Positions 1-33,430 of a DNA stretch of 33,811 nucleotides are shown here, in pieces. Each line of letters opens with the position of its first letter. The first letter of the stretch is position 1. A program made the position numbers and the translations under genes. Below the pieces are notes generated by a model. It saw nothing but the letters and a program-made list of their open reading frames with translations. It had not been told where the DNA came from and did no database searches. Location: NCBI GenBank assembly GCA_017506175.1, contig JAFVNW010000061.1, positions 1-33,811 on the forward strand. The letters run 5' to 3'. The stretch comes from Bacteroidales bacterium (GTDB taxonomy: Bacteria > Bacteroidota > Bacteroidia > Bacteroidales > WCHB1-69).

Positions 1-11
1 CCGGCACTTTC

Positions 12-135
12 CAGCCTGCAAAATGACTATTAGCGCACTTCCAAAGGCCTTTTTGTGTACAAACCTCTTGAATCACTGGAAACGCTTGTAATGCCTGCGT
101 TTCAGATCATTTTCAGCCTGCAAAATGACTATTAG
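12..135. repeat. 22-bp direct repeat, two copies
   Basis: Positions 12-33 and 114-135 carry the same 22 bases, beginning CAGCCTGCAAAATG and ending ACTATTAG, with repeat starts 102 bp apart. The right copy runs into a 10-bp perfect palindrome, TTAGGCCTAA, at 132-141, directly beside the U-run end of the structured RNA. No coding potential is visible between the copies. Two copies are too few and too far apart for a CRISPR array. The repeat may belong to a larger element cut off by the window edge. Confidence 0.7.
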
Positions 136-140
136 GCCTA

Positions 141-386
141 AAAAAATCGTGAACTCAATTGATTGTGTGGAGGTTCGGCAAAACCTAAACTGCAACAAGA
201 AAGCTCACGATTACTCGCAAGCATTCTCACTTTCTTTTGCAGTTTGTTGAAATTTGCCGATTTCCACACACAAAGAAAAGCGAAAACGCCTTTGCTATAA
301 ATTATCTATTTTGTTCTTTAAATTTTAATCTTCTTTATTACAATGTTTTAAGTTTAAAAATCTGTTCAATGTGCCTACAAGAAACA
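141..386 (-). ncRNA. Candidate pseudoknotted small RNA, copy 1
   Basis: Read on the minus strand, a -7 box (393-400) is followed by an AU-rich leader and then, at about 293-276, a small GCG hairpin with a UUUU loop. A long interrupted stem follows: 270-230 pairs with 203-164, including about 16 nearly continuous pairs between 245-230 and 203-187. The loop is about 26 nt. Its bases 212-202 can pair with 155-145 over 11 bp including one G-U, just before a U6 run (146-141). The same order of parts is found at 32100-32339 with different stem sequences but preserved pairing, which is the main reason to call an RNA. I do not recognise a named family; it lacks the features of tmRNA, RNase P RNA and SRP RNA. 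Ends are inferred. Confidence 0.6.
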
Positions 387-392
387 CATTGG

Positions 393-400
393 CAAAATTA
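393..400 (-). promoter_or_regulatory. -7 box for structured RNA copy 1
   Basis: The minus strand reads TAATTTTG, matching the Bacteroidota -7 consensus TAnnTTTG, with about 100 bp of leader before the UUUU-loop hairpin. Copy 2 of the RNA has a matching box at almost the same distance. A short hairpin (CAATGTG with CACATTG) lies directly downstream. Confidence 0.55.
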
Positions 401-586: not shown

Positions 587-650
587 CAGTTGAATTGCAG
601 AAATAATCAGTAAATGATGATTTCCGCATTTGAAATGGCAAAAATATACA

Positions 651-1466
651 ATGGCGATGGTCACAAATTTGCAGGATTGGGTTGAAGGCGAGATGATGAG
701 GGGGCGATACATCTTTACGAAAGAGGATGTGCTGGCATTGCATCTGCCTATCACAATGAATGCCCTACAGAACAGTCTGAACCGCCTTACTCGGCGCGGC
801 ATCATTATGTCCCCGTGGAAGAATTTCTATGTGGTGATTCCCACAGAATATAAGTTGAAGGGTGTCGTGCCGCCCTCGTTTTACATTGACAGACTGATGC
901 GCTTTCTTGGACGCGACTATTACGTTTCATTGTTATCGGCAGCGGCATTGAACGGTGCCACACACCAAAGTCCAATGGTGTTTCAGGTGACGGTCGATGG
1001 GAAACCTATTCGTTCAGGGGTGAAGAACGGAACCATGCTGGAGTTCACTCTCTGTCAGAATCTTCCACTCAAGTTCACCAAACAGGTGAAAACACAAATG
1101 GGGTATATGAACGTGGCAGGGGCGGAACTTACTGCCCTTGACATTGTAGCAGAAGAAGAAAAGATTGGAGGTTTGGGACGAGTGGCAGAACTCCTGATAG
1201 AATTAAGCGAGACAATCTCGTTGGGTGATGACAAGTTGGCACTATTGAAGTATTTCAGCAGTCCAACCATCCAGCGGTTGGGTTATCTTTTGGAGCTGAT
1301 AGAGAACCAAGACCTCGCTAATGACCTGTATGTCCTGATGAAGCGTTCAGGAAAGCGAATGCGCAGGGTGCCGCTGAAGCAATCAGTACCTTTCACCAAT
1401 GATATGTCGAAGAACCGGCGTTGGAACATTATTGAGAACTACAAAATTGAAATTGACGAACTATGA
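651..1466 (+). CDS. abiEi: AbiEi-type antitoxin of a type IV toxin-antitoxin system
   Basis: The 271-residue protein has the layout of AbiEi antitoxins. An N-terminal winged-helix region (LQDWVEGEMMRGRYIFTKED through LTRRGIIMSPWKNFYVV) is followed by a C-terminal domain with the AALNGATHQSP block, which resembles the AbiEi_4-like core. AbiEi proteins repress their own operon and neutralise the AbiEii nucleotidyltransferase without direct binding. I chose ATG 651 because the sequence downstream looks like a family N-terminus; an in-frame ATG at 630 would add seven residues. The stop codon overlaps the next start (ATGA), which indicates translational coupling. Family assignment rests on overall pattern and on the partner gene, which is clear. 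Confidence 0.8.
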   Translation: MAMVTNLQDWVEGEMMRGRYIFTKEDVLALHLPITMNALQNSLNRLTRRGIIMSPWKNFYVVIPTEYKLKGVVPPSFYIDRLMRFLGRDYYVSLLSAAALNGATHQSPMVFQVTVDGKPIRSGVKNGTMLEFTLCQNLPLKFTKQVKTQMGYMNVAGAELTALDIVAEEEKIGGLGRVAELLIELSETISLGDDKLALLKYFSSPTIQRLGYLLELIENQDLANDLYVLMKRSGKRMRRVPLKQSVPFTNDMSKNRRWNIIENYKIEIDEL

Positions 1467-2266
1467 TCCCCCAATACTCTATTCAAGAGTGGTCAGAGCA
1501 AGTGCCATGGAACACGGATGCGATGGTTGAACAAGACCTGATTATTTGTCGTGCTCTGGTCAGCATCTTCAGTGACGAGTTTCTCGCTTCACAACTTGCC
1601 TTCCGAGGTGGCACTGCCCTTCACAAATTGTACTTGCAACCGCAACCCAGATATAGTGAGGACATTGACCTTGTGCAGATTGCCCCTGGCCCTATCAAAC
1701 CTATTATGTTCCGTTTGGGAGAAGTTCTGGACTGGTTGCCGAATAGGAGTACGGCACAAAAGAAACACAGCAACAAGATGTTCTTCCGTTTTGATTCGGA
1801 AGTCCCTCCTATCCAACAACTTCGTTTAAAAATAGAAATCAATTGTTTCGAGCATTTTAATGTATTGGGGTTGGTGAAAGTGCCGTTCAAAGTAATCAAC
1901 AGTTGGTTTTCTGGCGAGACGGAACTGACGACTTATCAGTTTGAAGAACTGATGGGGACGAAGTTGCGGGCATTGTATCAGCGCAAAAAAGGTCGCGACC
2001 TCTTCGATATATACAAGGGACTGACCTTCCGCGAATGTGATATGGGGAAAATTCTGGAATGTTACCAAAAGTATATGGAGTTCGTGGTCGAACGAGTCCC
2101 CTCTTACAAGGAATATGTGCTGAATATGCAGGAGAAGATGAAAGACGTTGAATTTTTAACAGACGTGGTATCCTTACTGCACCCTGATGTGGCATTCAAT
2201 CCACAGGACTCCTATCAGTTGGTTTATAACAAACTGATTGATAAGATGGAGGGAAAGAGGGAGTGA
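1463..2266 (+). CDS. abiEii: AbiEii/AbiGii-type nucleotidyltransferase toxin
   Basis: This 267-residue protein carries the nucleotidyltransferase signature of AbiEii (DUF1814) toxins: GGTALHK at residues 49-55 and SEDIDL at 65-70, giving the GG...DxD metal-binding site (D67, D69). A downstream [21 protein letters not shown] block fits the family motif in which a lysine and a conserved aspartate support catalysis. Known AbiE toxins are cytoplasmic, arrest growth and can abort phage infection. The start overlaps abiEi by 4 bp. The C-terminus ends with its TGA at 2264-2266, exactly where homology to EtfA begins, so the pair looks like a cassette cleanly joined to a broken etfA. Confidence 0.88.
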
Positions 2267-2616: not shown

Positions 2617-4020
2617 ATGATAATTCAAATCAAATGCTTAATTATTAATGTTTTACTGTTGATTGCAGTGGGGATTCCGGCAACAGCACAGCGGTTGAGC
2701 GACCGCTACTTCGGCATTTCCAAACAGGATTTTGTCGATACCATCAAGATAAAAATGTGGGACGGGGCCATCGTTGTGCCCGTGGAAATCGAAGGGAAAA
2801 CCAAGAACCTGATGTTCGACACGGGTGCCGGGACAGGGTTCTGGATAGGAAATGAAGAGCCGTGGATGAAGCCGATGGGCGAAAGCATCACCACTCGTGA
2901 CGCCCAAAACAGAACGAAAAAAACGGCGATAATGATGATTCCCTCCCTTAAAATGGGACATCTCACCATCAAAAATTATCCGGTGGTGGTGGATGACGGG
3001 CTCAGTAATTTCTCCTGCGGTATCATTGACGGTGCTTTCGGCTTCGACCTTGTCTCCAAGGGCATCTCGTTCAAATTCGACACCCGTGACAGTCTGCTGA
3101 TTATGACCTCCCGCAAGGGCTTTTTCGCCAAAGAGGAGAAACGACACGCCAAGGTGCCCTACAAAGTTTACGGCAACGTACCCTTCCTGTGGACAAAAAT
3201 TCCGTTTGCCCACCCGAGAATGCTTTTCGATATGGGAGCTGTCGGCGGTTGGTTCAGTCTCCCGCAGGATTTGCTGGACCTGTGGGCGAAGGATAACCCC
3301 GACATCAAGCGGCAATTGGATTCGATGACGGTGAATGTAGATACGACCGTGATGACCTACGCTGGCCTTTTCGGCGCCTCCTACGATACGGTTATCAATG
3401 GCGAGCTCTGTTTTCCTACAATTGAAATCGGCGACATCGTTCTCAAGGAGGTGTGGGTCTCGACCGCCACGCACAGCAGGGCCGTCGGTTCGGCCTTGCT
3501 GGAGCACGTCTCGCTGATTATCGACGCACCGAAGAAGAGTTTTTACTTCCTGCCCCACGACGGGAACCCAGAAATCAACGTGGCGAACAGGGGAAGTGGC
3601 CTCAAGTTTGTTCCTGCCGAAGAGGGCGACACCCTCGGGGCGATGAAGACGATTGTGCGCAAAGGGACGAAAGCCTACGAGAAAGGCCTCCGCACCGGCG
3701 ATTACCTCATCAGCGTTGACGACACCCCCATCCCGGATTTATGCACGTATATGTTGCTGGTGCGCAGCGGTACTACGAAACGCTTTGTGTTCCGCAGTCC
3801 CGAGGGAAAATCAAGGAGGTGGATTGGTAGTAGCTATTTTTTTTTGAATCGGATAATCCGCTCATCCAATCACATTTTAAATCAGTATCCTCGTCTGTTT
3901 CCGGTACTCCGCGTAGCCGGGTTTGTTCTTCAGCTGGCGCTTTTCCATGAGCGGGATGCTGATGCCGAGAAACAGGGCGGTCATCGCTATCGGGGCCAGT
4001 ATCAGCCAGTTGAAACCTAA
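2617..4020 (+). CDS. Exported retropepsin-like aspartic protease with PDZ domain
   Basis: A signal peptide (residues 1-25, ending PATAQ) precedes a retropepsin-like fold. The first active-site loop is FDTGAGTG (D68-T69-G70). A second, degenerate loop, FDMGAVGG, lies near residue 205, so the enzyme could be monomeric with two unequal lobes. A PDZ domain follows (about residues 330-395: VRKGTKAYEKGLRTGDYLIS). The protein is probably periplasmic or surface-attached; the substrate is unknown. The last part is odd. After SSYFF (residue 409) the frame runs through a nine-T tract and 144 bp of sequence antisense to the convergent membrane gene. One T fewer would give a stop at once, so the natural C-terminus is probably near 3847. 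Confidence 0.8.
   Translation: MIIQIKCLIINVLLLIAVGIPATAQRLSDRYFGISKQDFVDTIKIKMWDGAIVVPVEIEGKTKNLMFDTGAGTGFWIGNEEPWMKPMGESITTRDAQNRTKKTAIMMIPSLKMGHLTIKNYPVVVDDGLSNFSCGIIDGAFGFDLVSKGISFKFDTRDSLLIMTSRKGFFAKEEKRHAKVPYKVYGNVPFLWTKIPFAHPRMLFDMGAVGGWFSLPQDLLDLWAKDNPDIKRQLDSMTVNVDTTVMTYAGLFGASYDTVINGELCFPTIEIGDIVLKEVWVSTATHSRAVGSALLEHVSLIIDAPKKSFYFLPHDGNPEINVANRGSGLKFVPAEEGDTLGAMKTIVRKGTKAYEKGLRTGDYLISVDDTPIPDLCTYMLLVRSGTTKRFVFRSPEGKSRRWIGSSYFFLNRIIRSSNHILNQYPRLFPVLRVAGFVLQLALFHERDADAEKQGGHRYRGQYQPVET
3837..3845 (+). repeat. T9 homopolymer at the end of the protease gene
   Basis: Nine consecutive T residues sit where the protease frame should end. With eight T residues the codons would read TAT TTT TTT TGA. 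The tract could be a sequencing slip, a natural slippage site, or a phase-variable end that switches between a 409-residue and a 467-residue product. Confidence 0.7.
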
Positions 4021-32086: not shown

Positions 32087-32094
32087 TATCTTTG
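32087..32094 (+). promoter_or_regulatory. -7 box for structured RNA copy 2
   Basis: TATCTTTG matches TAnnTTTG and lies 80 bp before the UUUU-loop hairpin. Transcription from about 32100 would give a transcript of about 240 nt up to the U-run, almost the same length as copy 1. Confidence 0.6.
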
Positions 32095-32099
32095 CCGCA

Positions 32100-32339
32100 T
32101 TGAATTTCACCCTATCGTTTCACCAAAAACCACCCGTCTATAGAATAGAAAAAGATAATTTAATATATTGATATAAAGCGTTTTCGCTTTTCTTGCAAAG
32201 TCGGAATCTGGTAAAATTCTAATCACTTAGTACGCAAGAAAGGAAAGACGTTCACGCTATCCGTGGACTTTTCTTGTTTGTACTAAAGGTTTACCAGAGC
32301 CTCGACTTAAAACACAAAAAGAGTTTCACGGATTTTTTT
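32100..32339 (+). ncRNA. Candidate pseudoknotted small RNA, copy 2
   Basis: An AU-rich leader, including AGATAATTTA shared in part with copy 1, leads to a perfect 6-bp hairpin with a UUUU loop (32175-32190). The main stem follows in four helices: 32198-32203 with 32303-32308, 32207-32215 with 32290-32298, 32227-32233 with 32280-32286, and 32236-32243 with 32268-32275. The 24-nt loop ends in ATCCGTGGA (32259-32267), which can pair with 32325-32333 just before a U7 run (32333-32339). The order and sizes match copy 1 while the stem sequences differ, so base changes are compensated. It may be a free RNA or the 5' leader of the lipoprotein gene that starts 42 bp later. Confidence 0.65.
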
Positions 32340-32380: not shown

Positions 32381-33430
32381 ATGAAAAAACATTACATTAT
32401 TATGCTCGTGGTTATTATGCCATTTTTAATCACATCCTGCAAAAAAGAGCTTCCTGTTGCAGACTTTAGTTATGTTTTAAAGAATCACTATACGTATACC
32501 AATACCTATTGGGGCCAAGTTGATTATGTTACTGTTTCGGTGAGTAATTATTCTTACAATGCCAACTCGTATTCATGGCAACTAACATTTCCTAATGGCA
32601 CAACCCTTACTAGTACTGAATATTTGCCAACCTTTGTATGCAATATTACTGGTAATTATGAACTAAAACTAACAGCTCGTAATGACGAAGGGGAAAACAC
32701 CTCTTCTCAAACTTTTTTCATTGAGATTGAGTATAGCGGAGAGAATGACAATCCAGATGAACCTGACAACCCCATTACCCCTCCCACTGCCTCTTTCAAT
32801 ATTAATAGCAGTAATGGGATATATGCACCTTCCAATATTCATTGTAACAATACTTCTGTAAACGCCACACACTACCAATGGACTTTAGTGTGTCCTGACA
32901 ATACTTCTGCGACCAGCACTTCAGTAAATCCGACATTTGCGTGTACTCAATCAGGGACATACACAGTACAACTAATTGCCTATAATTCGGAAAACCAGTC
33001 ATCAACTTCCACGATGACATTTTCACTAACAGCACCCTCGACCTTTACAATCACTTATCTCAGGTTGGAAGATATTCCTATGACTGACACAGACCATTCT
33101 TCGTGGGATACAGGACTTTTTGGTGGTGCAGACCCTGATATTGTTTTCAAAATACTAAACTCTTCTTCTTCTGTGTTATATACCAGTTCCAGAAAAGATG
33201 ATATTGGAGAATCAGACTTGCCAGTGACGTGGAATAATGTCAATAAAACGTTGAATTATAGTGGTAACTATTCTATATGGTTTTATGATTATGATGATGG
33301 AATGGACAGCCACGATATAATGGTTAGATGCAATTTACCCACCTCAAACATAACACCAGGATCTTCTTCATTTACATGGTTTAATAACGATGCAGGCGTG
33401 CGATTCGTCATAGGATTGACTTGGCAATAA
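32381..33430 (+). CDS. Lipoprotein with two PKD-like domains
   Basis: The 349-residue protein has a lipobox (ITSC, Cys20). It has two PKD-like domains: about 25-115, with the typical SYNANSYSWQLTFPNG and GNYELKLTARNDEG, and about 135-218, with NATHYQWTLVCPDN and GTYTVQLIAYN. A C-terminal domain of about 125 residues follows (YLRLEDIPMTDTDHSSWDTG, DPDIVFKIL, WFYDYDDGMDSHDIM) that recalls C2-like calcium-binding folds. It is probably displayed on the cell surface. The gene is visibly richer in A+T than its neighbours, which suggests later arrival. It sits directly behind the structured RNA copy 2, with no other clear promoter. Confidence 0.85.
   Translation: MKKHYIIMLVVIMPFLITSCKKELPVADFSYVLKNHYTYTNTYWGQVDYVTVSVSNYSYNANSYSWQLTFPNGTTLTSTEYLPTFVCNITGNYELKLTARNDEGENTSSQTFFIEIEYSGENDNPDEPDNPITPPTASFNINSSNGIYAPSNIHCNNTSVNATHYQWTLVCPDNTSATSTSVNPTFACTQSGTYTVQLIAYNSENQSSTSTMTFSLTAPSTFTITYLRLEDIPMTDTDHSSWDTGLFGGADPDIVFKILNSSSSVLYTSSRKDDIGESDLPVTWNNVNKTLNYSGNYSIWFYDYDDGMDSHDIMVRCNLPTSNITPGSSSFTWFNNDAGVRFVIGLTWQ

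Follow-up and report, generated by a model that had tools for sequence, protein, structure and literature searches.

A candidate leader RNA class of Bacteroidota with a putative pseudoknot-type terminator and an apical arm matched by guides of Cas12f-sigma loci

The window, by which we mean the whole 33,811-nucleotide stretch of contig JAFVNW010000061.1 (Bacteroidales assembly GCA_017506175.1), carries two copies of a structured element, copy 1 on the minus strand and copy 2 on the plus strand (Table 1). Both lie where the initial annotation had placed them, and an AAGCG-UUUU-CGCUU-type hairpin, a long interrupted stem, a loop-to-tail pairing and a terminal T run were present in each. The TAnnTTTG boxes were likewise found, whilst their distance to the GCG hairpin, given there as 80-100, was counted as 84 nt in copy 2 and 104 nt in copy 1. 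Predicted folds of 300-141 minus (copy 1; -55.1 kcal/mol, z -5.0) and 32170-32339 plus (copy 2; -47.7 kcal/mol, z -3.9) were not equalled by any of 200 dinucleotide shuffles, confirming that two elements of common architecture are real. In both copies the loop-tail pairing directly adjoins a run of seven Ts, the first of which (146) also takes part in the pairing in copy 1, and the transcript lengths of approximately 246 and 240 nt predicted by that annotation are plausible from sequence. The lipoprotein-like gene 3' of copy 2 is likely the target that this copy regulates. The contig ends 139 nt beyond the 3' end of copy 1, and a sequence of about 22 bases, CAGCCTGCAAAATGACTATTAG, occurs twice at this end just past the copy (window 10-36 and 113-136). 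An AbiEi/AbiEii toxin-antitoxin pair (window 630-2266, plus strand; Pfam) is divergent from copy 1, and genes upstream of copies L011, L012, L013, L048 and L050 resemble AbiEii or HepT-type genes, judged from sequence.

Table 1. Positions of the two element copies, their parts and the gene that follows copy 2 within the window
Feature	Position	Strand	Basis
TAnnTTTG promoter box, copy 1	393..400	-	sequence
Conserved RNA core, copy 1 (5' hairpin to U-run)	140..299	-	first model R1 148.2 bits, second model R2 136 bits
5' hairpin P0, copy 1	278..291	-	P0 98.8% paired in family alignment
PK5 alternative, copy 1	GCGUUU 289-284 with 226-221	-	97.9% paired, two-sided change in 3/6 pairs
P1, copy 1	268-264/166-170 (junction part 166..268)	-	alignment, covariation
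Hairpins HA and HB, copy 1	HA 264-249; HB 186-171	-	alignment, covariation
Loop-loop helix P2 (putative), copy 1	260-255/181-175, one gap	-	alignment, covariation
P3 and P4, copy 1	P3 245-239/187-193; P4 233-231/200-202	-	alignment, covariation
Apical hairpin P5, copy 1	222-215 with 210-203 (203..222)	-	family alignment
Tail, copy 1, pairing apical 3' arm 211-204 (pseudoknot)	146..153	-	family alignment
U-run, copy 1	140..146	-	sequence
TAnnTTTG promoter box, copy 2	32087..32094	+	sequence
Conserved RNA core, copy 2	32168..32339	+	R1 149.6 bits, R2 138.2 bits
5' hairpin P0, copy 2	32176..32189	+	family alignment
PK5 alternative, copy 2	GCGUUU 32178-32183 with 32246-32251	+	family alignment
P1, copy 2	32199-32203/32303-32307 (junction part 32199..32307)	+	family alignment
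Hairpins HA and HB, copy 2	HA 32203-32219 (one A-A mismatch); HB 32287-32302	+	family alignment
P2, copy 2	32207-32213/32292-32298	+	family alignment
P3 and P4, copy 2	P3 32227-32233/32280-32286; P4 32239-32241/32270-32272	+	family alignment
Apical hairpin P5, copy 2	32250..32268	+	family alignment
Tail, copy 2, pairing 32260-32267 (pseudoknot)	32325..32332	+	family alignment
U-run, copy 2	32333..32339	+	sequence
Gene 3' of copy 2: 349-aa lipoprotein-like, PKD domains (Pfam)	32381..33430	+	start codon 41 nt past U-run

The window's genome (G000) has exactly six occurrences of the 17-mer GCGTTTTCGCTTTTCTT, each heading such an element. A first covariance model (R1), built from seven copies, returned 14 copies from this genome at E<=1, the last four at E 4e-5 to 3e-4, and matched 25 of the 41 genomes of a search among relatives, G000 included, with 21 matches in one genome. 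With a second model (R2, from 42 copies), 119 of 294 Bacteroidales genomes gave matches, as did 38 of 296 genomes drawn from the whole phylum, G000 being counted in both surveys, for which copy numbers are lower bounds because nine candidates were scored per genome. Covariance-model searching of Bacteroidales genomes, which the initial annotation had proposed as a check, thus recovered abundant homologues with compensated pairing. When named genome contigs were scanned with a pattern, 41 stretches were returned, all from uncultured or metagenome-assembled Bacteroidales or Bacteroidetes and many from rumen, whilst viral contigs scanned with one pattern, and phage and plasmid records compared with copy 2, gave no match.

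Pattern matches at L007 and L009, where the element was absent, and a 25-bit match judged spurious (L031:1465-1581) were excluded, as was a 42-bit antisense match in L063 from the placement count. Removal of eight duplicate cores reduced 110 copies to 102 distinct ones, and 101 of these (L104 excluded) make up alignment A5, fitted to the nested structure model. A further 47 loci from genomes outside the window's order (L119-L165), hereafter other Bacteroidota, are at a guess, by gene content, largely Flavobacteria. Locus L103 holds tandem copies (934-1101 and 3397-3563), both preceding a secreted-protein-like gene of their own, and a palindromic insert (about GACAACGCATGCGTTGTC) separates promoter and core in L012, L017, L024, L025, L028, L031 and L051, being absent from the others.

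In agreement with the earlier view that the RNA could be assigned to no known family, the Rfam 15 comparison that had been suggested alongside it found no family at gathering threshold in the window, and none at the element among 20 loci, where a single SAM-I/IV match (L059) fell outside the element. Permissive scans produced sub-threshold hits (BTnc231, SurA, Teg49 and others) that were far below the family thresholds and judged to be chance. Identity with AbiF-type defence ncRNA, FopS/GibS, 6S-like RNA or Flavo-1, the last of which is among the Rfam models, was rejected for want of a gathering-level Rfam match at the element. A search of the open PMC literature, a scope short of most subscription papers, of bioRxiv and of the list of 224 candidate RNAs reportedly given in a 2017 study, found no description of the leader RNA or of dCas12f-sigma work.

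Covariation was already evident when seven copies were aligned without a structure model, with two-sided changes in 16 of 46 predicted pairs. Across A5, whose nested-pair figures lean towards the nested structure because the alignment was fitted to it, helices P0-P5 were paired in 97.9% of 3489 cells, compared to 72.3% when shuffled and 37-43% with slid partners, and two-sided changes affected 32 of the 35 nested pairs. The covariation first proposed from the two window copies therefore proved far above chance once homologues were added (101 copies). The core, approximately 165 nt, comprises a 5' hairpin, a P1-closed junction with two small hairpins and a P3-P4-P5 arm. P2 draws its strands from the loops of the two small hairpins, GAAA/UUUC (95.8% paired, two-sided changes in 3 of 4 pairs) and AGGU/ACCU (93.3%, 4 of 4 pairs), for which shuffles come close (90.7% for AGGU/ACCU) because the letters vary little; for hairpin HB, one measure, that of further pair types, was reached by 68 of 500 shuffles. 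P2 would accordingly represent a loop-loop interaction in space, inside the P1-closed junction. An extended P2, formed via AAAUU/GGUUU in place of HB, was rejected (82.7% versus 93.3% of cells paired).

The 5' hairpin loop, GCGUUU, is complementary to the AAACGC that opens the apical hairpin, 97.9% of cells being paired. This pairing exceeded all 500 shuffles in both sets, each time by a small margin: 4.86 of 5 against 4.80 in the Bacteroidales copies (99 copies, two of the 101 A5 rows being excluded for gaps) and 4.21 against 3.86 in the 47 copies of other Bacteroidota, none of which was excluded. In these 47 copies the nested fold and the tail pairing were recognised by eye, the letters being very different in the most distant.

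The loop-to-tail helix lies outside the nested model used to fit A5, and the initial claim that a loop segment complements the bases just before the U-run was upheld, with 95.8% of 805 cells paired against 84.3% when shuffled and 30-53% when slid. Two-sided changes occurred in five of its eight pairs (90 two-sided cells versus 25 in shuffles), and one of five measures, that of further pair types, was reached by 28 of 500 shuffles. The apical 3' arm covaries both with its own 5' arm (columns 87-93) and with the tail (columns 93-159), each at approximately 16 SD above background, so that the tail resembles a duplicate of the 5' arm, and formation of one helix excludes the other. Hairpin P5 and the tail pairing may thus be functional alternatives. 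By eye, distant copies preserve the tail pairing with different letters. TTTTT was present at the 3' end of 93 of 98 Bacteroidales copies and 32 of the 47 from other Bacteroidota, and the GC-rich pseudoknot helix abuts this U-run, an arrangement characteristic of intrinsic terminators.

Copies within one genome differ in their tail letters (CACGA, CACGG or GCGG), and one variable tail pair (A5 columns 147/246) was C-G in 31, U-A in 31 and G-C in 24 of 101 copies; copies 1 and 2 of the window differ in its form. Such variation might prevent cross-pairing among paralogous leaders. In nine of the 47 copies from other Bacteroidota, inspection by eye showed an additional hairpin ahead of the start codon, either accompanying a clean U-run or replacing it, with a loop that complements the tail. 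Its complementarity comprised 50 of 54 pairs, a result matched by 504 of 362,880 permutations; the copies and loop hexamers were chosen by eye, and the tail hexamer of L141, which is out of register, counts against it. This hairpin would appear to form another type of expression platform.

A TAnnTTTG box was detected within 170 nt upstream of 62 of 98 Bacteroidales copies, where mononucleotide shuffling predicts 7.8 and the reverse strand holds 24 (the four of 102 copies with less than 170 nt of upstream sequence were excluded), and upstream of 38 of the 47 copies from other Bacteroidota against 7.2 expected from shuffles, where its spacing is tight (median 23 nt). Boxes in the 60 nt after the RNA were confined to 11 of 98 Bacteroidales copies, whose genes could therefore own a separate promoter. 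Among the 102 distinct copies, 85 lie in leader position, with a same-strand open reading frame starting less than 300 nt downstream (median 76 nt), whilst seven precede an opposite-strand frame and ten precede neither; of the 17 with no same-strand start within 300 nt, six have one farther away and several are at contig ends. The corresponding numbers within 300 nt for the 47 copies from other Bacteroidota are 33 same-strand, one opposite and 13 neither. In 27 of these 47, a divergent frame lies within 200 nt upstream, and the three tested encode helix-turn-helix proteins.

By a simple home-made hydrophobicity rule, 61 of the 85 downstream frames have a signal-peptide-like N-terminus, compared to 75 of 281 other frames of the same loci. 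Pfam analysis of 82 downstream proteins, many of them cut by the locus end (the very long proteins of L083, L090 and L110 were excluded), identified Por_Secre_tail, the type IX secretion sorting domain, in 20, Fib_succ_major in nine and BspA-type leucine-rich repeats in three, and the remainder include two restriction-helicase-type proteins and two ClpB-like ATPases. Downstream genes in other Bacteroidota include TonB-dependent receptors (all six tested were confirmed), sigma factors and response regulators, the receptor genes starting about 200-700 nt past the RNA. Between RNA and receptor gene, a hairpin-like element (about GGCCCTCTAC...GTAGAGGACC) was observed in L121, L123, L125, L133, L148, L154 and L157.

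Taking these results together, we propose, at a probability of roughly 0.7, that the element represents a new class of Bacteroidota leader RNAs that regulate in cis, chiefly by attenuating transcription through a pseudoknot-type terminator. Its position and strand relative to downstream genes indicate a cis-acting leader rather than a free small RNA, and the free transcript of about 240 nt implied by the initial annotation is disfavoured by the 85 same-strand against seven opposite-strand downstream genes; a transcript of this length would be the terminated form of the leader. Before genes for surface and secreted proteins, the RNA is probably an on/off switch. Under this model, transcription would begin at the TAnnTTTG promoter and yield the core, whose apical 3' arm would choose between its own 5' arm (P5) and the tail before the U-run. 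Pairing with the tail would set a GC-rich helix against the U-run and cause termination, whereas a closed P5 would allow RNA polymerase to read on into the downstream gene, usually one for a surface or secreted protein. Were the 5' hairpin loop to pair with the apical 5' arm, the 3' arm would be released and termination made more likely. We infer this direction of control, and also that the state is selected by a signal, be it a small molecule, a protein or something else. Alternative pairings that are conserved and feed into an expression platform, as expected of a riboswitch, are seen in the covariation and suggest switching. The genes concerned (secreted proteins, TonB receptors, sigma factors, response regulators, restriction enzymes and ClpB-like ATPases) span no single metabolic pathway and offer no clear ligand candidate, a diversity that a global cue would fit better than one metabolite. 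If true, the class would rank among the more elaborate and more widespread kinds of leader RNA in a major phylum whose members inhabit gut, rumen and water, and it would govern what Bacteroidota display on their surface.

T-box and SAM-I are examples of terminator-controlled riboswitches or attenuators, with which the proposed leader shares a 5' leader position, an upstream promoter, a folded core and exclusive pairing with a terminator-like helix and U-run. It differs from this type in that the terminator helix is a pseudoknot between the core's apical loop and the tail, and in serving no single pathway. The FopS/GibS small RNAs, as described in PMC11697453, resemble it in belonging to Bacteroidota, in having many paralogues per genome and in their link to outer-membrane proteins. 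FopS of Bacteroides consists there of a single-stranded 5' stretch with a seed (the R1 seed of that family) followed by a terminator hairpin, and in architecture this contrasts with a folded core of about 165 nt in cis. Flavo-1, mentioned in PMC9723704 (an F. psychrophilum transcriptome whose small RNAs include Rfp18) as a computational find in Flavobacteriaceae with function not known, is similarly a computationally found Bacteroidota motif, and its Rfam family did not reach gathering score at the element.

Two other readings of the element bear on this proposal. Were the copies free small RNAs that act in trans, end at the U-run and stand before genes by chance, the tightly placed promoter box of other Bacteroidota and the terminator-like geometry would be expected; the gaps of about 200-700 nt to TonB receptor genes mean that the RNA may there end as a transcript of its own, and Bacteroides is known from PMC11697453 to have other paralogous small RNA families such as FopS. 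The strand bias (85 versus 7, and 33 versus 1) and the enrichment of secreted proteins are, however, unexpected under this reading; copies of one genome use different tail letters, and no conserved single-stranded seed stands out because the most variable parts are paired stems. We therefore regard free small RNAs as an unlikely explanation, though less so for the copies of other Bacteroidota that lie about 200-700 nt from a TonB receptor gene. When a trans-encoded copy of the 3' arm was sought in the window's genome, 10 matches with at most three mismatches were found against three for the reversed control, six of them in known copies (C89, C30, C78, C19, C53 and C81) and four elsewhere with 2-3 mismatches. 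A mobile or cassette-type DNA element travelling with secreted-protein genes, such as an integron-like folded attachment site or a transposon end, might account for the many copies per genome, several of them near contig ends, and for the accessory-looking downstream genes. By eye, however, only closely related copies have common ends outside the RNA core, no transposase was noticed among the neighbouring genes looked over, and the viral contigs (one pattern) and the phage and plasmid records (copy 2) gave no match. The U-run and promoter box make sense for an RNA, and we give the mobile-element reading very little credence.

In two genomes, L131 and L126, the leader RNA stands ahead of genes for a sigma factor and a Cas12f-like protein. 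The closest solved structure to the L131 protein is "Nuclease-deactivated Cas12f" (PDB 9n9c, E 1e-194), and the L126 protein is 65% identical to that of L131; by this structure match and identity the two are putatively nuclease-dead. The 3' flank of each Cas12f-like gene contains a gRNA-like scaffold that is conserved and leads into GCGTGGGCTC or GGCGTGGGTTC, which correspond to the conserved apical 3' arm of the leader RNA family. In a survey of the order of L131 and L126, 28 of 344 genomes encoded such proteins (36 genes), and 30 of these 36 loci were examined. A sigma-factor match lay upstream of the Cas12f-like gene in all 30, the leader RNA preceded both genes on the same strand in 24 (L183 weakly, at 36 bits), and at least one guide beginning (G)GCGTGRG was present in 28, in 25 of these within the first unit, the misses being L168 and L169. 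This separate protein-gRNA system (PDB 9n9c) is thus tied to the leader RNA both by gene order (24 of 30 loci) and by guide match to the apical arm (28 of 30).

In ten Cas12f-bearing genomes, all of which contained the leader RNA (35 copies), the 11-mer GGCGTGRGYTC occurred 58 times, compared to eight for the reversed control. Of these sites, 22 fell in elements (one in each of 22 of the 35), six in guides and 30 elsewhere; within elements they were always on the same strand, 60-66 nt before the element end, whilst 20 of the 30 remaining sites, on inspection, all lay in open frames, 19 of 522-2010 nt and one of 291 nt. A dCas12f match was detected in only two of 18 element-bearing genomes tested, and not in that of the window, showing that the element is independent of dCas12f. 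The leader RNA was rejected as the dCas12f gRNA itself, as the scaffold after dcas12f differs in sequence and 16 of the 18 element genomes gave no dCas12f match.

The guide matches (28 of 30 loci) and the 11-mer content of 22 of 35 elements would also suit a DNA target site for dCas12f-guided sigma recruitment, in which RNA structure is incidental. Against such a site stand the 2-of-18 count, which makes it unlikely outside dCas12f-bearing groups, and the massive two-sided covariation, which requires a folded nucleic acid, and we consider it highly improbable as an explanation of the family. We lean slightly towards the element being a shared node, namely the RNA switch proposed above in most Bacteroidota, and in some also an address for dCas12f-sigma, encoded in the DNA of the apical arm. 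One short guide may then recruit sigma factor and RNA polymerase to leaders genome-wide, the system's own operon included, bypassing the terminator with positive feedback. The published dCas12f-sigma system reportedly requires a minimal 5'-G target-adjacent base and starts transcription approximately 46 bp downstream of the R-loop, and at this distance new transcripts would begin at the tail, past the terminator-forming point. A guide-directed start near the tail would leave the terminator unable to form. The guide match would explain the target of an exapted CRISPR activator in these genomes, and a protein-guided layer and an RNA-switch layer would meet on the same few bases. At L169, L171, L184 and L193, three to four tandem gRNA-like units with different guides follow the Cas12f-like gene, and these Cas12f systems may therefore have further targets.
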